Source of the DNA: Arsukibacterium tuosuense
Lineage (GTDB): Bacteria > Pseudomonadota > Gammaproteobacteria > Steroidobacterales > GCA-2729495
NCBI GenBank assembly: GCA_945872065.1
Contig: CAMBYH010000021.1
Coordinates: 1-33,139 of the forward strand
DNA length: 33,139 nt
Reading direction: 5' to 3'
Part shown: positions 4,274 through 27,167 of the stretch, piece after piece
Position numbering within the stretch: the first letter of the stretch is position 1
Layout of the letters: every line of letters begins with the position of its first letter
The notes under the pieces: generated by a model
Told to the model about the DNA's origin: nothing
Databases searched by the model: none
The model's input: only the letters and a program-made list of their open reading frames with translations
Program-made: the position numbers and the translations under genes

Positions 4274-5299
4274 ATGACCCCCCCGAACCCCGTCCTGGAC
4301 TTCACTCCCGAGATTGAGCGGGAAACCCGCGACCTCTACCAGCGGGTCCGGCATGTCATTCCTGACGTGGAGTGGCCCGTCCACGCGCCACTGATCTCCG
4401 CCATCAACCGGCGCAAGCGCGAGCGCAAAGCCATCATCCTGGTGCACAACTACATGCCGCCGGAGATCTTCCACGGGGTCGCCGACTACTCGGGCGACTC
4501 CCTGGGCCTGGCCCAGTTCGGTGAGCGCACAGCCGCCGAGACGATCGTCATGTGTGGCGTGCACTTCATGGCGGAGACCGCGAAGATCCTCAGCCCCGAC
4601 AAGACCGTGCTGCTGCCGGACCTGAAGGCGGGCTGTTCGCTGGCGTCGTCGATCACCGCGGCGGACGTCCGGGCCCTTCGTCAACGGCACCCGGGCGTTC
4701 CGGTAGTGACCTATGTGAACACGTCAGCTGACGTGAAGGCAGAGTCCGACGTCTGCTGTACCTCGGCCAATGCGGTGCAGGTGGTGGAGTCGCTGGGCGT
4801 CGACGAAGTGATCTTCATTCCGGACCAGTTCCTCGGCAAGTACGTGGCGGGCAAGACCAGCGTCAGGCTGATCCTCTGGGAGGGTGCCTGCGAGGTTCAC
4901 GAGCGCTTCTCGGGGCAGGAGTTGCGGGACTTCCGCGGCATGCACCCCGGGATTCACGTCATGGCCCACCCGGAGTGCCCGCCAGACGTGCTGGCCGAAG
5001 CAGACTATGTGGGCTCCACGTCGGCGATGATCGGCCACGTGGGCAAACTGCGTCCCAAAAAGGTGGCGATGATCACCGAGTGCTCCATGGCGGGTAACGT
5101 GGCGGTGGAGTTCCCGGAGGTGGAGTTCATTCAGCCCTGCAACCTCTGCCCGCACATGCAGCGCATTACGTTGCCCAAGATTCTGCACTGCCTCGAGACT
5201 CTGACCCCGGCCATTGATGTGCCTCCCGATGTGGCCCAGAGGGCCCGTCAGGCCCTGGAGCGCATGCTGGCGGTGGGCCGTGGCGCTGCCCGCGACTGA
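4274..5299 (+). CDS. nadA: Quinolinate synthase NadA
   Basis: A protein of 341 residues that condenses iminoaspartate with dihydroxyacetone phosphate to quinolinate, the second step of de novo NAD synthesis in the cytoplasm. The family signatures are present: LVHNYMPPEI (residues 57-66), VADYSGDSLGLAQ, CGVHFMAETAKIL, PDLKAGCSLA with C121, YVNTSADVKAESD, MAHPECPPDV with C235, and CNLCPHM with C289/C292. C121, C235 and one Cys of the last pair should ligate the [4Fe-4S] cluster. Length is normal. Start ATG 4274 gives the usual N-terminus. It is followed after 19 bp by nadB, which makes its substrate, so the two are almost certainly one operon. Confidence 0.97.
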   Translation: MTPPNPVLDFTPEIERETRDLYQRVRHVIPDVEWPVHAPLISAINRRKRERKAIILVHNYMPPEIFHGVADYSGDSLGLAQFGERTAAETIVMCGVHFMAETAKILSPDKTVLLPDLKAGCSLASSITAADVRALRQRHPGVPVVTYVNTSADVKAESDVCCTSANAVQVVESLGVDEVIFIPDQFLGKYVAGKTSVRLILWEGACEVHERFSGQELRDFRGMHPGIHVMAHPECPPDVLAEADYVGSTSAMIGHVGKLRPKKVAMITECSMAGNVAVEFPEVEFIQPCNLCPHMQRITLPKILHCLETLTPAIDVPPDVAQRARQALERMLAVGRGAARD

Positions 5300-6947: not shown

Positions 6948-8148
6948 TTCCGCCGAGGCTGGTCGTGCCGGCAAACTGCATCGTGCGCTGCAGTTCGCTG
7001 TCGAGTATGGCCAGGACCTTGGCCACGCCCTTCTCACCGTAGGCGCCAAGCCCGTACAGGTAGGGCCTGCCGACACACACGGCCGTCGCGCCCAGCGCCA
7101 GTGCCTTGAAGATGTCTGTCCCGCGCCGGATGCCACCGTCCATCAGCACGGGGATCCGACCGGCCGTGACGGCAACCACTTCAGGCAGGCACTCCAGGGT
7201 GCCGCGCCCACTCTCTTCCTGACGCCCACCGTGGTTGGAGACGATGATCCCGTCCACCCGGGCGCGCACCGCAAGTTCTGCATCTTCCCGGGTCACGATG
7301 CCCTTGAGCAGGATTGGCAGCCGCGTGTTCTCCCGGAGCCAGTCCACAATGGCCCAGGTGAGCGCCGGGTCGCCAAAGCGGGCTGGCCCCTGGTAGCCAG
7401 AGAAGTTGCCCATCGCCGGTGGGCCCTTGCCGGTGGACTGGCGCGGGGCGCTGCGGGCAAACCAGCGTTCCCCTTCCCGATTGCCCCGGGTGGGAGAATC
7501 AACCGTCAGCACCACGCACAGACAACCCGCCGCCTCCGCGGACGCCAGGAGATGCCGCATCAGACCCTGGTCCGGCGACGCATAGAGCTGGAACCACAGG
7601 GGCGCAGTGCCAGCCGCCCGGATCGCGCCGATGCTGCTGCTGGTGACCGTCGAGGCAATCAGCAGATGCCCCCGCTGTGACGCCCCCCGCATGGTGGCGA
7701 GCTCACCCTCCGGGTTAATCGTCTGCTGGGCGCCAACCGGCGCCAGCACCAGGGGCGAGGACAGCGCCTGGCCCAGGAGCTTCAGACTGGTATCGATACG
7801 ACTGACATCCACGAGACGGCGAACCCGCAGCTGCCAGTCGTCGAAAGCCGCGCGATTGGCCTCCACGGTCCGCTGGTCATCCGCGCCATTGACGATGAAA
7901 TGCCAGGTCTCCAGGTCCAGGGTTTTCTGGGCAGCACGCTGCATCTGGAACACATCGAGGACCTGATCCAGGGTTTCCGGAACGGCGAATTCCGGACGGG
8001 CCAGCGCCCGGCGCGGCAGCAGCAAGCCCGGTGCCAGAATACCGGTCGCTGCGATCAGCGGCGACTGGAGCAGGAAACGAACCAGCTGGCGCCGGGCCTG
8101 CTGGCGCTCGTTAAGGGCGCGAGGGGACCATGCTTCCCGGCTGCTCAC
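6913..8148 (-). CDS. FMN-dependent alpha-hydroxy-acid oxidase/dehydrogenase, probably exported or membrane-anchored
   Basis: A protein of 411 residues of the lactate/glycolate oxidase (LldD, Mdl) family, which oxidises L-2-hydroxy acids to 2-oxo acids. It shows the family TIM-barrel landmarks: LAPVGAQQTINPEGE, LWFQLYAS, VVLTVDSPTRG, ILLKGIVTREDA, the catalytic His/Arg box SNHGGRQ, and the FMN-phosphate site MDGGIRRGTDIFKALALGA. The N-terminus carries an Arg-rich segment with a hydrophobic stretch (RRQLVRFLLQSPLIAATGIL), either a weak twin-arginine leader or a membrane anchor; cytoplasmic relatives lack it. GTG 8148 is chosen because it overlaps the TGA of the upstream gene (GTGA), indicating translational coupling. 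The real substrate and electron acceptor are unknown. Confidence 0.88.
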   Translation of the reverse strand: MSSREAWSPRALNERQQARRQLVRFLLQSPLIAATGILAPGLLLPRRALARPEFAVPETLDQVLDVFQMQRAAQKTLDLETWHFIVNGADDQRTVEANRAAFDDWQLRVRRLVDVSRIDTSLKLLGQALSSPLVLAPVGAQQTINPEGELATMRGASQRGHLLIASTVTSSSIGAIRAAGTAPLWFQLYASPDQGLMRHLLASAEAAGCLCVVLTVDSPTRGNREGERWFARSAPRQSTGKGPPAMGNFSGYQGPARFGDPALTWAIVDWLRENTRLPILLKGIVTREDAELAVRARVDGIIVSNHGGRQEESGRGTLECLPEVVAVTAGRIPVLMDGGIRRGTDIFKALALGATAVCVGRPYLYGLGAYGEKGVAKVLAILDSELQRTMQFAGTTSLGGITNAYLQRRPE

Positions 8149-8807
8149 GGCCGCGGCTTGCCGGAGGGATCCCCGCCGTGGCGTTCCTGGTACTGCGCGT
8201 CGGTCTGGGTACTGAAGGTCTTGAAGTCGGGCTGCACAATCTTCTGCCGGAGCGCCTTGATATAGGTGTCGGGCCCGAGGGGGCACTGGGCGTACAGGAG
8301 ATGTTTCCAGCCGTCGGGCTTCTTCCGGAAGATGGTGAGGCAGCGATCAAAACCGGCGGTGGGGGGCGTGGGCGGGCCAATGGCCAGATCGATTTCGTAG
8401 AAGTGATCAAACAGGGCGAGCGTGAGATCTGGCGCCAGGGCCTTCACGTGGAGGTTGGAGAACTGCCAGCGGAACGCCCGCAGCACCCGCCGGCCGGGGC
8501 CCCAGTACTTCTCAATCTCCGGCCAGGTCCTGAAAGGTGTCTCGATCTCTTCCGGCACGTACCAGGGCTCGGGATCGTCGGCATCCCAGACCTCCTTCAG
8601 GCGAAAGAAGTGCTGGCTGTTCCAGATGTCCGCCGTCGTCTTCAGGACGGCATCGATTTCGGTCCAGAGACGGGTCGGTCCGGTGGCCGTTTCCGCAGCG
8701 CCGGGCAGCGCTGCAGCCAGACCGCCCAGGGCGGCCATCATCTGCAATGCCGTGCGGCGATCGAAGCCGCTCGTGGATAAATCGGGTGCGTCTGGCTGAT
8801 CATTCAT
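8145..8807 (-). CDS. Tat-exported SnoaL/NTF2-like protein
   Basis: A protein of 220 residues. The N-terminus has a clear twin-arginine leader: FDRRTALQMMAALGG, hydrophobic LAAALPGAA, likely cleaved near GAAETA. The mature part (IDAVLKTTADIWNSQHF, PFRTWPEIEKYWGPGRRVLRAFRW, LALFDHFYEIDL, CLTIFRKKPDGWKHLLY) fits the cone-shaped NTF2/SnoaL-like fold often used for small ligand binding or non-redox catalysis. The function is not known. The ATG at 8807 has AGGAG upstream with about 10 nt spacing. The gene overlaps the alpha-hydroxy-acid oxidase by 4 bp, so the two proteins probably act together in the periplasm. Confidence 0.75.
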   Translation of the reverse strand: MNDQPDAPDLSTSGFDRRTALQMMAALGGLAAALPGAAETATGPTRLWTEIDAVLKTTADIWNSQHFFRLKEVWDADDPEPWYVPEEIETPFRTWPEIEKYWGPGRRVLRAFRWQFSNLHVKALAPDLTLALFDHFYEIDLAIGPPTPPTAGFDRCLTIFRKKPDGWKHLLYAQCPLGPDTYIKALRQKIVQPDFKTFSTQTDAQYQERHGGDPSGKPRP

Positions 8808-19413: not shown

Positions 19414-19818
19414 GTGATCGGACGACTTAATCACGTGGCCATTGTGGTCCCGGACCTCAAGGCCGCTGCGGCGATTTATCGAGACACGCTCGGCGCGACA
19501 GTGTCTGCCCCGATGGATCTTCCTGACCACGGGGTCACGACCGTGTTCGTGGAACTGCCGAATACGAAGATCGAACTGCTTGCGCCGCTGGGCGCCACCT
19601 CTCCCATCGCGAAGTTCCTCCAGGCGAATCCGAGTGGCGGGATGCACCATGTCTGCTACGAGGTCGCTGATATCCTCGGGGCTCGCGACGCACTCCGTAA
19701 CGCGGGGGCACGGGTGCTGGGTGACGGGGAGCCGAAGACCGGCGCCCACGGCAAGCCGGTGCTGTTTCTGCATCCCAAGGACTTTTGCGGCACGCTCGTG
19801 GAGCTCGAGCAGATTTGA
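19414..19818 (+). CDS. mce: Methylmalonyl-CoA epimerase
   Basis: A protein of 134 residues of the vicinal-oxygen-chelate (glyoxalase-like) superfamily. It interconverts (S)- and (R)-methylmalonyl-CoA, linking PccAB to the mutase. The two beta-alpha-beta-beta-beta modules start at LNHVAIVVPDL and MHHVCYEV. Metal ligands expected by family alignment are H7, E54 (KIELL), H79 and E130 (LVELEQI). GGMHHVCYEV and FLHPKDFCGTLVELEQ are typical. The GTG start at 19414 has AGGA only 3 nt away and GGAAGGA further upstream. It lies 5 bp after meaB and closes the propionyl-CoA operon. Confidence 0.95.
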   Translation: MIGRLNHVAIVVPDLKAAAAIYRDTLGATVSAPMDLPDHGVTTVFVELPNTKIELLAPLGATSPIAKFLQANPSGGMHHVCYEVADILGARDALRNAGARVLGDGEPKTGAHGKPVLFLHPKDFCGTLVELEQI

Positions 19819-19884: not shown

Positions 19885-20097
19885 ATGACGAGTAAATACG
19901 GAATCTGGATCTACTGGAGCGCCGACGACAACGCGTATATCGCGGAAGTTGCCGACCTTCCGGGCTGCATGGCTGATGGGTCAACCTATCAGGCGGCGCT
20001 CGCAGCCGCAGAAGCAGCCATCGCAGCATGGATCGAGACCGCCCACGAACTGGGGCGAGAAGTACCGATGCCGCGGGCACACCGAGCCAGCGCGTAG
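19885..20097 (+). CDS. HicB-like small protein, no HicA partner seen
   Basis: A protein of 70 residues. The pattern Y.IWIYWSADDNAYIAEVADLPGCMADGSTYQAALAAAE, then AIAAWIETAHELGREVPMP, is the RNase H-like fold of the HicB antitoxin family, including the LPGC/ADG signature. HicB normally sits beside the toxin HicA; the 66 bp upstream (19819-19884) contain no HicA-like sequence and the downstream gene is on the other strand. No C-terminal DNA-binding domain is present. It could be an orphan antitoxin or a housekeeping UPF0150-type protein. GGGGA lies about 7 nt before the ATG. Confidence 0.75.
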   Translation: MTSKYGIWIYWSADDNAYIAEVADLPGCMADGSTYQAALAAAEAAIAAWIETAHELGREVPMPRAHRASA

Positions 20098-20109
20098 GCA
20101 GCCGCCTAC
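20094..20109. repeat. Short palindrome holding two convergent stop codons
   Basis: GTAGGC-AGCC-GCCTAC is a 6-bp perfect inverted repeat with a 4-nt loop. It contains the TAG of the HicB-like gene (20095-20097) and the complementary TAG of the acyltransferase gene (20106-20108). It could be a weak bidirectional terminator or a REP-like remnant. There is no T-run. Confidence 0.5.
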
Positions 20110-20864
20110 CCGGCCACCGCCGCCTCCGCCTCCGCCACCAGTTTCGCCATCCGCACTTCGAGTTCCTGGCGCAAGCGCCCCAGATCGTCCGTGCCCGACC
20201 CCGCGGGCACGAAGAACGGCTCGTCGATCGCGATGGCCACCTTCGCGAACGGCAGGGGCACGATAAAGCGGTCCCAGCTGTTCCAGCGGATGCAGGGCCT
20301 GGCCGCGTAGGCGATCAGGATGATGGGGGCCTTGGTCATGCGCGCCAGCAGGATCGTGCCGGTCTTGAACTCGTGGATGGGGCCGGTCGGCCCGTCCGGC
20401 GTGATGACCAGCGAGGTCTTCTGGCCCACCAGCACGTCGAACATGTCCTTCAGCGCCTGGCCAGCCGACCGCTTCGACGAACCCCGGAGAACACCCGCGC
20501 CCCAGCGCCGGATAATGGCCGCCGGCACTTCACCACTCACCGACGGGCTGGTCAGGAAGGAAATCTTCAGGCCTTTCCGGGCCCGCATCAGGAGGAACCG
20601 GCCGCAGAAAATCTGCATCTGGTGCCAGTAAGACACTATCGCCGCGGCCTCGCTGGCCTGAAGTTGCTCCAGATGCCCGGCGCCGCGGACCGGCAACAGC
20701 CGGCAGGTCACCGCCAGCAGTCCCAACAGCCCCCGGGCCAGAAAGATGATCACGGCATACCAGGCGCGACGGCCAGCCGACATGACCCGCTTCGACGAGC
20801 GGGGTATGCCAGTCGGGCGAAAGCGCTTGGCGCGCTGGCTGGCTGCATAGGGTTGCTCGCTCAC
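20106..20864 (-). CDS. DUF374 lysophospholipid acyltransferase family protein
   Basis: A protein of 252 residues. An N-terminal amphipathic/hydrophobic stretch (AWYAVIIFLARGLLGLLAV, residues 34-52) suggests inner-membrane attachment. The conserved SYWHQ with His H81, the phosphate-contact block LRGSSKRSAGQAL (about 126-138) and ITPDGPTGPIHEFKTG are signatures of the DUF374 branch of PlsC/LpxL-like acyltransferases. These move an acyl chain onto a lipid or lysolipid; the acceptor is unknown. The start is taken as GTG 20864; ATG 20783 (28 residues shorter) is an alternative. Only 20 bp separate it from the divergent P450 gene, so the two likely share a control region and may act on the same lipid. 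Confidence 0.85.
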   Translation of the reverse strand: MSEQPYAASQRAKRFRPTGIPRSSKRVMSAGRRAWYAVIIFLARGLLGLLAVTCRLLPVRGAGHLEQLQASEAAAIVSYWHQMQIFCGRFLLMRARKGLKISFLTSPSVSGEVPAAIIRRWGAGVLRGSSKRSAGQALKDMFDVLVGQKTSLVITPDGPTGPIHEFKTGTILLARMTKAPIILIAYAARPCIRWNSWDRFIVPLPFAKVAIAIDEPFFVPAGSGTDDLGRLRQELEVRMAKLVAEAEAAVAG

Positions 20865-20884: not shown

Positions 20885-22255
20885 ATGAAGTCCCGCGAGA
20901 ATGATTCCCCGGGTTCAGACCAGGATGCGGCCGGAGCGTCTGGTCTGCCCGCCGGGCCGGATGAGCTGCACACCATCGGTCCGGACCACCAGACCTTTGC
21001 AGCCCTGGCCCGCTGGGTGCCCGAGTACGGGGATTGCTTCTGCGTCCAGTCCCGGGATCGCCGGGATCCCAGCTTGGTCGTCAGCAACCCCGACTACATC
21101 AAGCACATCCTGCTGACCAACCACGAGAATTACGCGAAAGGCGTTGGCTTCGAGCGGGTCAAGATGCTGCTGGGGAACGGCATCATCGTGAGCGACGGCG
21201 AGGAATGGCGACGCCAGCGGACGATGATGCAGCCGGGCTTCAGCCGGGCAAATATTGCCCGCTTGTCGGAGGCCATGCGGAGCCAGAACCAGGCGCTCCG
21301 GGGTCCGTGGGGCCTGCTCGCCGACTCCGGACAGACCATCGACATAACGACAGCCATGAGCCGGCTGGGTCTGGACGTGATCCTCCGCTCCATACTGAGC
21401 AGGGACCTGGACAGGACCATCGAGCGGGAGGGTGGCAATCCCTTCGGCTTCCTCGCGGAGGACACCACCCGGGATATCCAGACGGCGGTCCGATTCCGGA
21501 ACCTCGCCCGGGTGATTCTGGGGCTGGTCGACGAACGGCGCAGGACCGGCGAGCGCCCCTTCGATTTCCTGTCCCTGCTGATGGATGCCCGGGACCGGAA
21601 GTCCGGCGCCGGAATGACCGACAAGGAACTGCTGGACGAGGTCAACACCCTGATCATCGCCGGGCACGAGACCTCGGCCGGGACCCTGAACTGGGTCTGG
21701 TACCTTCTGAGCCAGCACCCGCAGGTTGAGGAGCGCCTGCTGGCGGAACTCGCCGAGCTCACGCCGGGAGACGACTTCAGCTTCGACCAGCTGATGGCCC
21801 TGAACTACACCGCCTGCGTGCTCAAGGAGACACTACGGCTCTACCCACCGGTCTGGCTGTTCTCCCGGCGCGCGAGGCAGGAGGATCGCCTCGGCGCACT
21901 GCGCGTACCCGCAGGTGCCCACATCTTCATCACGCCCTACTTCCTCCATCGGCGCCCGGAACTGTGGCCGGATCCGGAGCGGTTTGATCCCGAGCGCTTC
22001 GCTGAATCCCGGTCACCACCGGTCGACAGGTACGCCTTCATACCGTTCTCAGCCGGTGCCCGCCGCTGCATTGGCGACTACTTTTCCTTTGTCGAGATGC
22101 AGATGCACCTGGCCCTGCTTGCTCCGCACTTCGCGCTGCGTTACGAGCCAGGCGCCCACCAGGGATCGCGGGAAGCCATTGAACTCGATCCGGCTGTGAA
22201 CCTGCGAACCCGGAACAGCATCCACCTTGGCATCCGGCACCGGAATACGACCTGA
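20885..22255 (+). CDS. Cytochrome P450 monooxygenase
   Basis: A protein of 456 residues. All core P450 motifs are present: WRRQRTMMQPGFS (C-helix, heme propionate contact), I-helix AGHETS (259-264) for oxygen activation, K-helix KETLRLYPP with E315 and R318, the PERFDPERF meander region, and the heme loop FSAGARRCIG with the thiolate ligand C395. The overall pattern is closest to the fatty-acid/terpenoid-type CYP4/CYP102-like clan rather than camphor-type P450s. There is no membrane anchor or fused reductase, so electrons must come from elsewhere. It is followed after 4 bp by a fatty acyl-AMP ligase with a carrier domain, suggesting that it oxidises a fatty acyl chain, perhaps while carrier-bound. 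Confidence 0.93.
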   Translation: MKSRENDSPGSDQDAAGASGLPAGPDELHTIGPDHQTFAALARWVPEYGDCFCVQSRDRRDPSLVVSNPDYIKHILLTNHENYAKGVGFERVKMLLGNGIIVSDGEEWRRQRTMMQPGFSRANIARLSEAMRSQNQALRGPWGLLADSGQTIDITTAMSRLGLDVILRSILSRDLDRTIEREGGNPFGFLAEDTTRDIQTAVRFRNLARVILGLVDERRRTGERPFDFLSLLMDARDRKSGAGMTDKELLDEVNTLIIAGHETSAGTLNWVWYLLSQHPQVEERLLAELAELTPGDDFSFDQLMALNYTACVLKETLRLYPPVWLFSRRARQEDRLGALRVPAGAHIFITPYFLHRRPELWPDPERFDPERFAESRSPPVDRYAFIPFSAGARRCIGDYFSFVEMQMHLALLAPHFALRYEPGAHQGSREAIELDPAVNLRTRNSIHLGIRHRNTT

Positions 22256-22259
22256 AACC

Positions 22260-24233
22260 ATGGCAACAGACCTCCCCGCCACGCTTCCCGACGTACTCGC
22301 CGCGCACAGCGCTTCGAGCCGCCGGATTCACTACCTGAACGGGCAGAATGACCGCCGCTCGGTAACCTTCGGTGAGCTGCGCACGGCCGCCCTCGGGGTT
22401 CTGTTTCACCTCCAGGCTTTCGGCGCACAGCCTGGCGACCGGGTGATCCTGCACACGTCCAGCAACGAGCAGTTCCTGGACGGATTCTGGGCCTGCCTCC
22501 TGGGCGGCCTGGTGCCGGTTCCCGTGGCCGTCGGCATCAGCGACGACCACCGACTCAAGTTGCTGCAGGTCTTTACCGCGCTGGGCAAACCGATGGTCTA
22601 CACGGAAGACGGGCAGCGAACCCGGCTCCAGGACTATGGCAAGGCCAGCGGCGCGGCGGCCCTCGTCGACGAACTGAACAGGCGCTCGCTGTACGTGGAA
22701 CGCGTCACTGACATCTCCCGCCCGGGCCGGGAACACCCCGTGAGGGCCGATGACATCGCTTTCATCCAGTTCTCGTCCGGCTCCACGAGCACACCCAAAG
22801 GGGTCGTCCTGACCCACTGCAATGTACTGACCAATATCCGGGCCATCATTGAGCGCGGGCGGTTCTCCGCACAGGACGTATCGCTGAGCTGGATGCCCCT
22901 GACCCATGACATGGGCCTGATCGGGTTTCACCTTTGCATGTTCACGGCGAACATCGAGCACACCATCATGGACACCCGGCTGTTCAGCCGGCGTCCCCTG
23001 CTGTGGCTCGAGGAAGCCAGCCGGATCGGAGCCACCCTCCTCAGCTCCCCCAACTTCGGCTACAAGCATTTCCTGAAGCTTTACGAGGCCAAGGGGCTCG
23101 ACGGTCTCGATTTGTCCCGGGTGCGCCTGCTTTTCAATGGTGCCGAGCCGATCTCCGTGTCTCTCTGCGCCCGCTTCATGCAGGAGATGAAGCGCTTCGG
23201 CCTGCCAGAGGCAGCGATGTACCCGGTTTACGGGCTGGCGGAAGCCAGCCTCGCCGTCAGTCTGCCGGAGCCGGGACAGCCCTGCCGCTCCCTGACTCTT
23301 GAGCGCTCGTCCCTCGCCGTAGGCCGCCTCGCCAGCGTCTGTGCGCAGGGCTCGCCCACTGGCCTCGAACTGATGGTGTTAGGCACACCGATCAGCCACT
23401 GCGAACTGCGCGTCGTGGACGATGATGACCGGACGCTGGCTCCGGGAACGGTCGGTAACCTGCAGATCCGGGGCGGCAACGTGACCAGCGGCTACGTCGG
23501 GCTCCCGGGAGGTCAGCAGCCGTTCACGGCCGACGGCTGGCTGCGCACCGGAGATCTTGGCTTCCTCACCGTCCCTGAGGCCGAACTGGTCGTCACGGGC
23601 CGGCAGAAGGAGATCATCTTCGTCAACGGGCAGAACTACTATCCCCACGATCTGGAGGCAGTCGCTGAGCAGCACGCCGGCATCGAGCTCGGCAAGATTG
23701 CGGCAGCCGGCTCCCGCAAGGCGACCGGTGAGGAAGAAGAACTGCTGCTGTTTCTGATTGATCGCGGCTCATCGGCGGACTTCCTGCCGGTCGCCAACCA
23801 GCTGCGTCGCCAGATCACCGAGCACACCGGCCTGAACGTGGCCCACGTCATTCCCGTGAAGAGCCTTCCCAAGACTACCAGTGGCAAACTGCAGCGGGGC
23901 AGGCTTGCCCAGGCGTACGCCGATGGCGAGTACGATGCGGTCCTGGCAGAGCTGGACGCGCTGGCAGCGGCGAAGGCCAGCAAGGGGGCCACGAGCGAAG
24001 CGGGCGGCTCAGATCTGCAGACGACGATCCGGTACATCTGCGCCTCGGTCATCACCGACCGGGAGATTGGCCTGGATGATGACTTCTTCGAGCTTGGGGT
24101 AAGCTCACTGTCGCTCGCCCAGATACACGAGCGCATCGACGAGCAGTTTCCCGGTCAGCTCGATGTGGAAGACCTGTTCACCAAGTCCACGATCCGGGCC
24201 GTGGCTGCGCACCTTGAGGAGAAGGGCCGGTGA
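22260..24233 (+). CDS. Fatty acyl-AMP ligase fused to an acyl carrier domain
   Basis: A protein of 657 residues. The adenylation part has the ATP loop FSSGSTSTPKG (171-181), SWMPLTHDMGLIGFHL (the FAAL-type form of the family motif), FNGAEPIS, YGLAEASLAVSLP, DGWLRTGDLGF and KTTSGKLQRGRL, whose Lys residues close the active site. FAALs make acyl-adenylates and pass them to a phosphopantetheine arm instead of CoA. Residues about 590-650 form a carrier domain; the arm-bearing Ser is S616 in LGVSSLSL, where the usual preceding Asp is Ser. This could be a chain-activating and holding module for the neighbouring P450. ATG 22260 is 4 bp after the P450 stop. No ketosynthase is in the window. Confidence 0.9.
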   Translation: MATDLPATLPDVLAAHSASSRRIHYLNGQNDRRSVTFGELRTAALGVLFHLQAFGAQPGDRVILHTSSNEQFLDGFWACLLGGLVPVPVAVGISDDHRLKLLQVFTALGKPMVYTEDGQRTRLQDYGKASGAAALVDELNRRSLYVERVTDISRPGREHPVRADDIAFIQFSSGSTSTPKGVVLTHCNVLTNIRAIIERGRFSAQDVSLSWMPLTHDMGLIGFHLCMFTANIEHTIMDTRLFSRRPLLWLEEASRIGATLLSSPNFGYKHFLKLYEAKGLDGLDLSRVRLLFNGAEPISVSLCARFMQEMKRFGLPEAAMYPVYGLAEASLAVSLPEPGQPCRSLTLERSSLAVGRLASVCAQGSPTGLELMVLGTPISHCELRVVDDDDRTLAPGTVGNLQIRGGNVTSGYVGLPGGQQPFTADGWLRTGDLGFLTVPEAELVVTGRQKEIIFVNGQNYYPHDLEAVAEQHAGIELGKIAAAGSRKATGEEEELLLFLIDRGSSADFLPVANQLRRQITEHTGLNVAHVIPVKSLPKTTSGKLQRGRLAQAYADGEYDAVLAELDALAAAKASKGATSEAGGSDLQTTIRYICASVITDREIGLDDDFFELGVSSLSLAQIHERIDEQFPGQLDVEDLFTKSTIRAVAAHLEEKGR

Positions 24234-25027
24234 CCCTGAACATTCCCGGTCACCGGGAACTGCGCAAGATACTCATCCTGAATCCCAAGGGTGGCTCGGG
24301 CAAGACGACCCTGGCCATGAATCTGGCCGGGTACTTCGCCTCGCTCGGGCGACCTGTTGCCCTGATGGACTTCGACCCGCAGGGGTCCAGCATCCGCTGG
24401 CTGCGGAAGCGGCCGGCCACGGCACCCAGCATTTACGGGGTTGCGGCTTTCGAGAAGAAAATGAACATGACACGCAGCTTTCAGCTGCGTATGCCGTCGG
24501 AGATCCGCTATCTGGTCGTGGACACCCCGGCGGCGATGACCACCGCCCAGCTGACGGAATTCACACCCGGCGCCCACGCCATCCTGGTCCCGGTCCTGCC
24601 CTCCGCCATCGATATCCATGCCGCGTCCCGGTTAATCGCCGATCTTCTGCTGGTGGCGAAGGTCAGCCGGCGCATGGGCAGGCTTGGCGTGGTGGCCAAT
24701 CGCGTGCGGGAGAACACCCTCGGCTTTCGCAAGCTGATGTCCTTTCTCGACCGGCTCCAGATCCCCATCGTCGGGGCCTTGCGTGACAGCCAGAACTACG
24801 TGCACGCCGCGGACGAAGGCTCGAGTATCCACGAGATGCACAGCTCCCGGACCCGGAAGGATCTGGCGAGCTGGCTGCCACTCACCAGCTGGCTGGAGAT
24901 GCGCCTCAACACCCCGCTCACGGATCGGGACATCCTGAGGCTCGGCGATGCGCCACTCCCCTCTGAGACATCTGCTGAAATCATCGACCTCCGCACCCGC
25001 CGCGATGCAGAAGGTACCGGACCTTAG
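24230..25027 (+). CDS. Orphan ParA/MinD-family ATPase
   Basis: A protein of 265 residues. Deviant Walker A KGGSGKTT is at 20-27 with signature Lys K20, followed by LMDFDPQGSSIRWL (Walker A') and VVDTPA (Walker B). This is the fold of ATPases that position DNA, protein complexes or organelles (ParA, MinD, McdA). No ParB, centromere repeats or replication genes are nearby, and no N-terminal DNA-binding domain is present, so plasmid partition is unlikely. The GTG start overlaps the FAAL TGA by 4 bp (GTGA), with GAGGAGAAGGG just upstream: tight coupling to the ligase-carrier protein. The last 40 residues are probably disordered. The most likely role is positioning or assembling the ligase/P450 machinery, but this is inference. 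Confidence 0.88.
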   Translation: MTLNIPGHRELRKILILNPKGGSGKTTLAMNLAGYFASLGRPVALMDFDPQGSSIRWLRKRPATAPSIYGVAAFEKKMNMTRSFQLRMPSEIRYLVVDTPAAMTTAQLTEFTPGAHAILVPVLPSAIDIHAASRLIADLLLVAKVSRRMGRLGVVANRVRENTLGFRKLMSFLDRLQIPIVGALRDSQNYVHAADEGSSIHEMHSSRTRKDLASWLPLTSWLEMRLNTPLTDRDILRLGDAPLPSETSAEIIDLRTRRDAEGTGP

Positions 25028-26195: not shown

Positions 26196-27167
26196 TTACC
26201 CGCCGAACGCGGCAGCTGCTGCGCGGAGCGTCTCGCAATTTATCGCTGCGATGTGGCGGACCTCGACACCACTGGCCTTGAGCGTCTTTCGGATGATTCC
26301 TTCCAGATTCGGGCGCTTCGCCACCGGCCCTTCTTCCGCACCCAGGCCCCCGCCAAACTCAACGAAGGTTGTCACCTGCTGCGCGATGGCCGAGTTCAGG
26401 CAGCCGACCCAGTTCACGGGATTGAACAACTGGAAGAACAGTCGCGTCCGGATCGAATCAGGTTCGTGCAACTCACCGGTGTAGTTGGAGAGAACCCCGA
26501 CGGTGGGCGCGGAGAACGTCACCCGCTCCAGATCTTCCCTAAACAGCTGGGCCGCTGTCACCATGAAATAGGTATGAAAGGCCCCTTCCGTAGCCAGGCG
26601 AATGGCGCGCTTGCGGGGCATGCGCTCGGCGAGATCGAGGGCCAGTGCGTCCAGATCGCTGTCACGCCCCCCGACCACAGTCTGGTTCGGCAGATTACAA
26701 CTCGCGACCTGGCAGTAGTGGCGATCCGCCAGGGGCCGCGCGGTGTCTACGTCCAGCGTGAGCGCCAGCATGCCGCCTTCGCCGTGCTCACCCATCAACT
26801 CACCCCGGCGCCTCACCAGCCGTAGCGCATCATCGAAACCCAGCGCGCCGGCCGCCACCAGCGCGCTGTACTCGCCAAGGCTGTGGCCTGCGGCCAGCGC
26901 CGGCTGAAGCCGGCCACCGGTCAGTTCTTCGAACACGCGCAGACAGGCGATCTCGTGGGTCAGGAGCGCCGGTTGCGTATTTCGGGTGAGGCCAATCTCG
27001 CCAGCGGGATCCGCAAAGGACAACTCCCGGAGATCGAAGCCAAGCACTTCACTGGCCCGGTCGTAAACCTGGCGGGCGGCGGCAAACTCCTGATAGAGAT
27101 CGCTCCCCATGCCCCGGTACTGGGAACCCTGACCGGGAAACACAAACATTACGCGCTGGTCGCTCAC
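26196..27167 (-). CDS. Stand-alone malonyl-CoA:ACP transacylase (FabD/AT-like)
   Basis: A protein of 323 residues. FVFPGQGSQYRGMG begins the fold; the nucleophile is S96 in GHSLGEYS, R121 (RRRGELM) is the Arg that pairs with the malonyl carboxylate, and H198 (EGAFHTYFM) is the catalytic His. The residues around that His differ from the common SGAFHSPLM of housekeeping FabD. It is not next to fabH, fabG, acpP or fabF, so it is probably an extra acyltransferase similar to discrete (trans-acting) AT enzymes of secondary metabolism. The natural carrier partner may be the FAAL-linked carrier domain encoded opposite, but this is inference. GTG 27167 is chosen as start; it is 7 residues before FVFPGQGSQ. 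Confidence 0.85.
   Translation of the reverse strand: MSDQRVMFVFPGQGSQYRGMGSDLYQEFAAARQVYDRASEVLGFDLRELSFADPAGEIGLTRNTQPALLTHEIACLRVFEELTGGRLQPALAAGHSLGEYSALVAAGALGFDDALRLVRRRGELMGEHGEGGMLALTLDVDTARPLADRHYCQVASCNLPNQTVVGGRDSDLDALALDLAERMPRKRAIRLATEGAFHTYFMVTAAQLFREDLERVTFSAPTVGVLSNYTGELHEPDSIRTRLFFQLFNPVNWVGCLNSAIAQQVTTFVEFGGGLGAEEGPVAKRPNLEGIIRKTLKASGVEVRHIAAINCETLRAAAAAFGG

Follow-up and report, generated by a model that had tools for sequence, protein, structure and literature searches.

The window, the 33,139-nucleotide stretch of Arsukibacterium tuosuense DNA analysed here, encodes a DUF374 acyltransferase, a cytochrome P450 and a fatty acyl-AMP ligase with a fused acyl carrier domain (FAAL). 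These enzymes probably attach, oxidise and activate a fatty chain, respectively, and together they constitute a gene cassette that recurs in gammaproteobacteria. A probability of about 0.68 is assigned to these three proteins being the functional unit, with the chemistry proposed below and with the adjoining ParA-family ATPase excluded. The ParA gene, a common orphan whose position varies, looks like an unrelated neighbour that is sited beside the cassette in one genus only. The relevant features of the window are as follows.

19414..19818, + strand, gene resembling methylmalonyl-CoA epimerase, assigned by eye from the translated sequence; forms the left edge of the site that the acyltransferase/P450/FAAL block occupies
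19885-20097, + strand, gene for a small HicB-like antitoxin (PF15919), with the epimerase gene on one side and the acyltransferase gene on the other
20106..20864, - strand, DUF374 (LpxJ-family) acyltransferase (PF04028, 59 bits; cut-off 26.8); divergent partner
20885..22255, + strand, cytochrome P450 (ATG at 20885, last base of the stop codon at 22255; PF00067, E=3e-70)
22260..24233, + strand, FAAL with fused C-terminal acyl carrier domain (ATG at 22260; AMP-binding PF00501, E=9e-51; PP-binding PF00550, E=2e-12)
24230..25027, + strand, orphan ParA-family ATPase (GTG at 24230; CbiA/ParA PF01656, E=1.9e-18); judged a neighbour and not part of the cassette
26196-27167, - strand, FabD-like malonyltransferase (240 bits, just under the fabD cut-off of 260.9)

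The P450 and FAAL genes are separated by the 4-bp spacer AACC, the FAAL and ParA genes overlap by the 4 bp GTGA, and the start codons of the divergent acyltransferase and P450 genes lie 20 bp apart. The original prediction, which described the P450, FAAL and ParA genes as an operon in which ParA positions a ligase-P450 complex, had placed the three genes, the 4-bp spacing, the 4-bp overlap and the residues C395, S616 and K20 correctly. A scan of the window for promoters and terminators returned no promoter-like site. At two further loci of the same genus (L060 and L013), the intervals matching the HicB-like gene are too short to hold one.

Distribution and linkage of the cassette

Within 97 genomes of the order, the P450 was present in 19 at E<=1e-100, and in 19/19 the FAAL gene lay directly downstream on the same strand. 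Across 321 genomes of the class the P450 was present in 17 at E<=1e-90, with an adjoining FAAL gene in 16 and a contig that stops inside the P450 gene in the 17th. The window genome and G017 are common to both samples, which together supply 33 distinct P450-FAAL loci. At 28 of these the DUF374 gene lies upstream in divergent orientation, and at three (L087, L093 and L094) it follows downstream of the FAAL gene; it was not found locally in the other two (L069 and L092), the genome of the first, G017, having a DUF374 gene on another contig.

DUF374 genes occur in 26 of the 97 order genomes, in single copy each, and are found in 22/22 genomes with a FAAL compared with 4/75 without (p=4e-18). The FAAL and P450 also co-occur in these genomes (p=2e-17), this and all other co-occurrence p-values being from Fisher tests that ignore phylogeny. 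The patristic distances of acyltransferase, P450 and FAAL correlate at 0.80-0.88 against a shuffled maximum of 0.24, values that include shared species history and derive from the 29 loci with all three genes, L127, L128, L131 and L134 being excluded. The alignments took in P450 matches of at least 250 bits and FAAL matches of at least 350 bits, and exclude the L080 acyltransferase, the L089 P450 and the L081, L125 and L126 FAALs, for which no ORF was recovered.

G422 departs from the linkage, its FAAL and P450 genes being on separate contigs. Six P450 matches in genomes of the class were weaker, with E between 1e-75 and 1e-60. Three of the six were fetched (L095-L097), and in none was a FAAL gene beside the P450 gene; the only ligase match in L097 was a 27% partial one approximately 7 kb from the P450. 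In a search of 398 genomes of the phylum, the window was the sole match at E<=1e-75 among the 21 genomes listed, the rest all being of the same class; the range of the cassette is given here within the class.

The FAAL-carrier protein and the P450

The best NCBIfam match of the window ligase is fatty acyl-AMP ligase, at 338.7 bits and under the cut-off of 600, and its best PDB matches are the adenylation-domain protein 6ulw and McyG, followed by the FAALs 3pbk, FadD23, FadD28 and FadD32. Three features expected of a FAAL, namely relation to the AMP-binding (ANL) enzymes, pocket-blocking residues and a partner carrier, here fused, were found. Residues W216, M223 and F271 are conserved in 39/39, 38/39 and 39/39 sequences, respectively, in FAAL alignment numbering, which like that of the P450 alignment runs 5 higher owing to five retained upstream residues. 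Their spacing of 7 and 55 equals that of the CoA-pocket-blocking residues W224, M231 and F279 given for EcFAAL in PMC8460268, a correspondence judged by spacing rather than by direct alignment with EcFAAL. The carrier Ser616 is kept in 38/39 FAALs, the odd row (L127) being a partial sequence. A lysine at alignment position 548, which we take to be the catalytic lysine, is also kept in 38/39, with the remaining row again partial. Because of its family, the FAAL would be expected to activate an acyl chain and load it.

The columns of the heme cysteine (Cys395), the EXXR motif and the I-helix AGxET motif of the P450 (C, E, R, A, G, E and T) are conserved in 39/39 P450 sequences. The nearest PDB sequences are plant LUTEIN DEFICIENT 5, the putative bacterial P450 3dbg and CYP4B1. 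P450s of the P450BioI type act on carrier-bound acyl chains, and the cassette P450 is likewise encoded beside an acyl carrier domain, a likeness of gene context. Searches of G167 and G373 found no P450, and G352 retains only a 64-residue P450 match upstream of the FAAL gene (L073, 10016-10195). The FAAL and DUF374 genes persist in all three genomes, which suggests that some genomes can do without the P450 step and that the acyltransferase and FAAL form the more constant pair. At loci L070 and L072 a P450 match is absent.

The acyltransferase and accessory genes

DUF374 is the family of LpxJ, whose conserved residues are listed in PMC6148475 as W60, H61, D132, W172 and D173, with the D86A exchange abolishing the activity of Rickettsia LpxJ. 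Equivalents were assigned by motif and approximate spacing against the residues named in that paper, rather than from an alignment containing LpxJ; on this basis W80, H81, D157 and W197 are present in 37/37 acyltransferase sequences and D198 in 35/37. The position matched by motif to D86 is Asp in 31/37, whereas in the window protein and five relatives it is Ser. Given the effect of D86A on the Rickettsia enzyme, this Ser suggests that the window acyltransferase may differ in mechanism or acceptor. To judge from its sequence it does not look like the product of a decaying gene, because the other conserved residues are intact. A further difference from LpxJ is that in this order DUF374 is almost confined to genomes with a FAAL (22/26).

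Accessory genes were sought at 42 related FAAL loci, a few of which have short flanks or overlap with one another in the same genome. A gene for a FabH-type KAS III of about 322 aa lies directly 3' of the FAAL gene on the same strand in 10/42 (L070-L076, L078, L131 and L134). The original prediction had remarked on the lack of a ketosynthase, and none was seen among the window translations that were read; these ten related loci, however, qualify that remark. A phosphopantetheinyl transferase-like gene is near the FAAL gene in 9/42, as found with a profile built from five of the nine. When six of these genes were checked in Pfam, five were above the PF01648 cut-off, with that of L093 under it (21.3 against 25 bits). 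The FAAL gene is adjoined by an LpxL-type acyltransferase gene in 3/42 (L066, L069 and L092), and L066 and L069 also contain ArnC/ArnT-like genes recognised by eye. No PKS or NRPS genes were recognised near the FAAL loci inspected by eye. The accessory genes fit an acyl-transfer pathway, and vary between lineages.

Proposed pathway and alternatives

In the pathway proposed here, the FAAL would adenylate a fatty acid and load it onto its own C-terminal carrier, the P450 would oxidise the chain while it is held on the carrier, and the LpxJ-family acyltransferase would transfer the modified chain to a lipid of the membrane, with lipid A and a lysophospholipid as possible acceptors. Gene content, conserved catalytic residues, linkage, co-occurrence and the lack of linkage to ParA are observations. 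Gene linkage is the basis for placing the oxidation on the carrier and for assigning the transfer to the DUF374 protein; which chain is used, what the P450 does to it, in what sequence the steps run and which lipid receives the chain are inferred. A non-PKS route in which the chain is oxidised while tethered to the FAAL's own carrier domain and is then delivered by an LpxJ-type acyltransferase to a lipid of the outer membrane, across many gammaproteobacterial families, is possible but less likely than not. FAALs fused to lysophospholipid acyltransferases, and others interspersed with oxygenases, are on record in PMC8460268, with no description of this cassette in the text consulted, and the idea of such a cassette therefore has precedent.

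A narrower form of this explanation, in which a modified secondary acyl chain is made for lipid A specifically and the DUF374 protein is an LpxJ, is possible but somewhat doubtful. Membership of the LpxJ family and the largely retained LpxJ residues (PMC6148475) are consistent with it, as are the LpxL-type and ArnC/ArnT-like neighbours; the LpxL-type neighbour, however, is confined to a few loci, and the window's own family has Ser at the D86 equivalent. The copy number of LpxL/LpxM-family genes shows no drop with the cassette, at 1.50 in the order genomes that carry it against 1.56 in those that do not (p=0.52, 97 genomes), an equality by which lipid A is not singled out. That the DUF374 protein takes the place of LpxM was considered separately and rejected, since this copy number does not differ with the cassette.

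An unlikely alternative is that the cassette yields a small secreted fatty-acid product, or performs a short chain extension, with the acyltransferase being secondary. The KAS III genes directly after the FAAL gene would suit such an activity, and typical bacterial FAALs accompany PKS or PKS/NRPS genes according to PMC8460268. The DUF374 gene is nevertheless the steadier partner, being found in every FAAL genome of the order, and the loci inspected by eye gave no sign of PKS or NRPS genes.

The adjoining ParA gene

The window ParA contains the motif KGGSGKTT, a deviant Walker A motif whose signature lysine is K20 and whose P-loop lysine is K25, and its best PDB match is ParF. Among the loci examined, an intact ParA gene adjoins the cassette in just two, that of the window genome and that of G411 (L001/L060) of the same genus. 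The gene order in G411 is as in the window, with ParA 133 bp past the FAAL gene, and the FAAL-ParA overlap is thus unstable within the genus. A third locus, L013 (G829, same genus by contig position), has full-length acyltransferase, P450 and FAAL frames beside a ParA (about 8000-8255) reduced to an 85-codon remnant, in which two internal stretches are gone and the P-loop lysine is replaced by Gln. The remnant keeps the 4-bp start/stop overlap, and could conceivably stem from an assembly error, though its frame remains open.

In the window, G411 and L013, the cassette block lies between the epimerase and ParA genes. In L003 and L006 (G833 and G834, same genus by contig position) the order is epimerase-ParA-DedA-malonyltransferase, with 17 bp from the epimerase stop to the ParA start and the cassette absent at the site. 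At E<=1e-40, six of the 14 genomes reached via ParA loci had the P450 together with the FAAL and the other eight lacked the two, the genomes of L003 and L006 being among the eight; as G833 is 78% and G834 88% complete, this genome-wide absence is weaker evidence than absence at the site itself. Genus members G830-G832 are outside this comparison under those handles. The malonyltransferase corresponding to 26196-27167 of the window accompanies DedA and ParA in L003-L006.

Between the window and L060 the dN/dS of ParA is 0.07, in a comparison from which the ParA, epimerase and malonyltransferase rows of L062 were left out as matches to unrelated reading frames. This indicates purifying selection, and ParA is therefore probably a working gene in both. 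Its role is presumed to be separate from that of the cassette.

The original prediction had looked to conservation of the P450, FAAL and ParA genes across genera as its support, and had named confinement to close strains as the outcome that would overturn it. No ParA was found at E<=1e-8 at any of the 31 P450-FAAL loci outside the genus (17 from the order and a further 14 from the class, each with P450 and FAAL together), within flanks of up to 8 kb a side that are shorter at contig ends. ParA relatives at E<=1e-60 are present in 44/97 order genomes at positions that do not track the P450-FAAL pair; in G346, for example, the pair and ParA share a contig but map near 2.49 Mb and 1.51 Mb, respectively. 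Association of ParA with the FAAL across the 97 order genomes is weak and non-significant (14/22 against 30/75, p=0.056), and with the P450 there is none (p=0.3). ParA was tallied at E<=1e-60 and G387, of a related genus, therefore scored as lacking it; this genome contains a broken ParA remnant (L120, about 4924-5288) and an intact P450-FAAL pair on another contig.

The neighbours of ParA, inspected by eye at 12 of 20 fetched ParA loci, vary between families, with some recurring within a family, and no ParB-, McdB- or ParP-like partner was recognised among them. An HtpG-like gene adjoins ParA in four genomes of one family (L111, L113, L116 and L118). A second ParA paralogue of 44% identity is located at G000:C55:13168-13827 (L121), near genes that by eye are DapF- and XerC-like. 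Two MAGs labelled Thioalkalivibrio (L002 and L007) contain a ParA 82-85% identical to that of the window in different surroundings, for which gene transfer or mislabelled bins are possible explanations.

ParA was rejected as a component of the cassette on the strength of the 31 loci outside the genus, the cassette-free site in L003 and L006, and the remnants in L013 and G387. Positioning or assembly of the ligase-P450 complex by ParA, at least in this genus and by recent co-option through translational coupling, is very improbable: the start/stop overlap in the window and the L013 remnant, the low dN/dS, the somewhat higher frequency of ParA in FAAL genomes and the orphan ParAs reported in many metabolic operons, some of which position cargo (PMC9178275), are outweighed by the lack of linkage outside the genus, the ParA gene at the same site without the cassette, the truncated and P-loop-altered ParA beside an intact P450-FAAL pair, the 133-bp gap in L060 and the lack of a recognisable partner by eye. 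Of the model first proposed, the ligase-carrier, P450 and acyltransferase thus hold up as P450-FAAL tandems with DUF374 in many families, whereas the ParA part, intact beside the cassette only in the window genome and G411, does not.

Relation to known systems

The cassette FAAL shares its ligase family with FadD32, FadD28 and FadD23, FAAL-carrier enzymes of PKS/NRPS lipid pathways, and has pocket-blocking residues spaced as in EcFAAL and a carrier fused in cis. It differs from the FAALs of such pathways in being accompanied by a P450 and a DUF374 acyltransferase, with no PKS/NRPS genes recognised by eye. With the McdAB, PpfA and ParC cargo-positioning systems the window ParA shares the ParA family and the deviant Walker A motif; it differs in having no conserved cargo gene, its linkage to the cassette not extending beyond the genus. 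Taken alone, a start/stop overlap with a ParA gene is no evidence of a positioning system. No description of the P450-FAAL-DUF374 cassette was found in the open-licence literature, as judged by titles and the beginnings of abstracts. If the chemistry proposed here is true, the cassette would provide a compact route to unusual envelope acyl chains that is independent of a polyketide synthase, and a set of DUF374 acyltransferases would gain a dedicated donor pathway.
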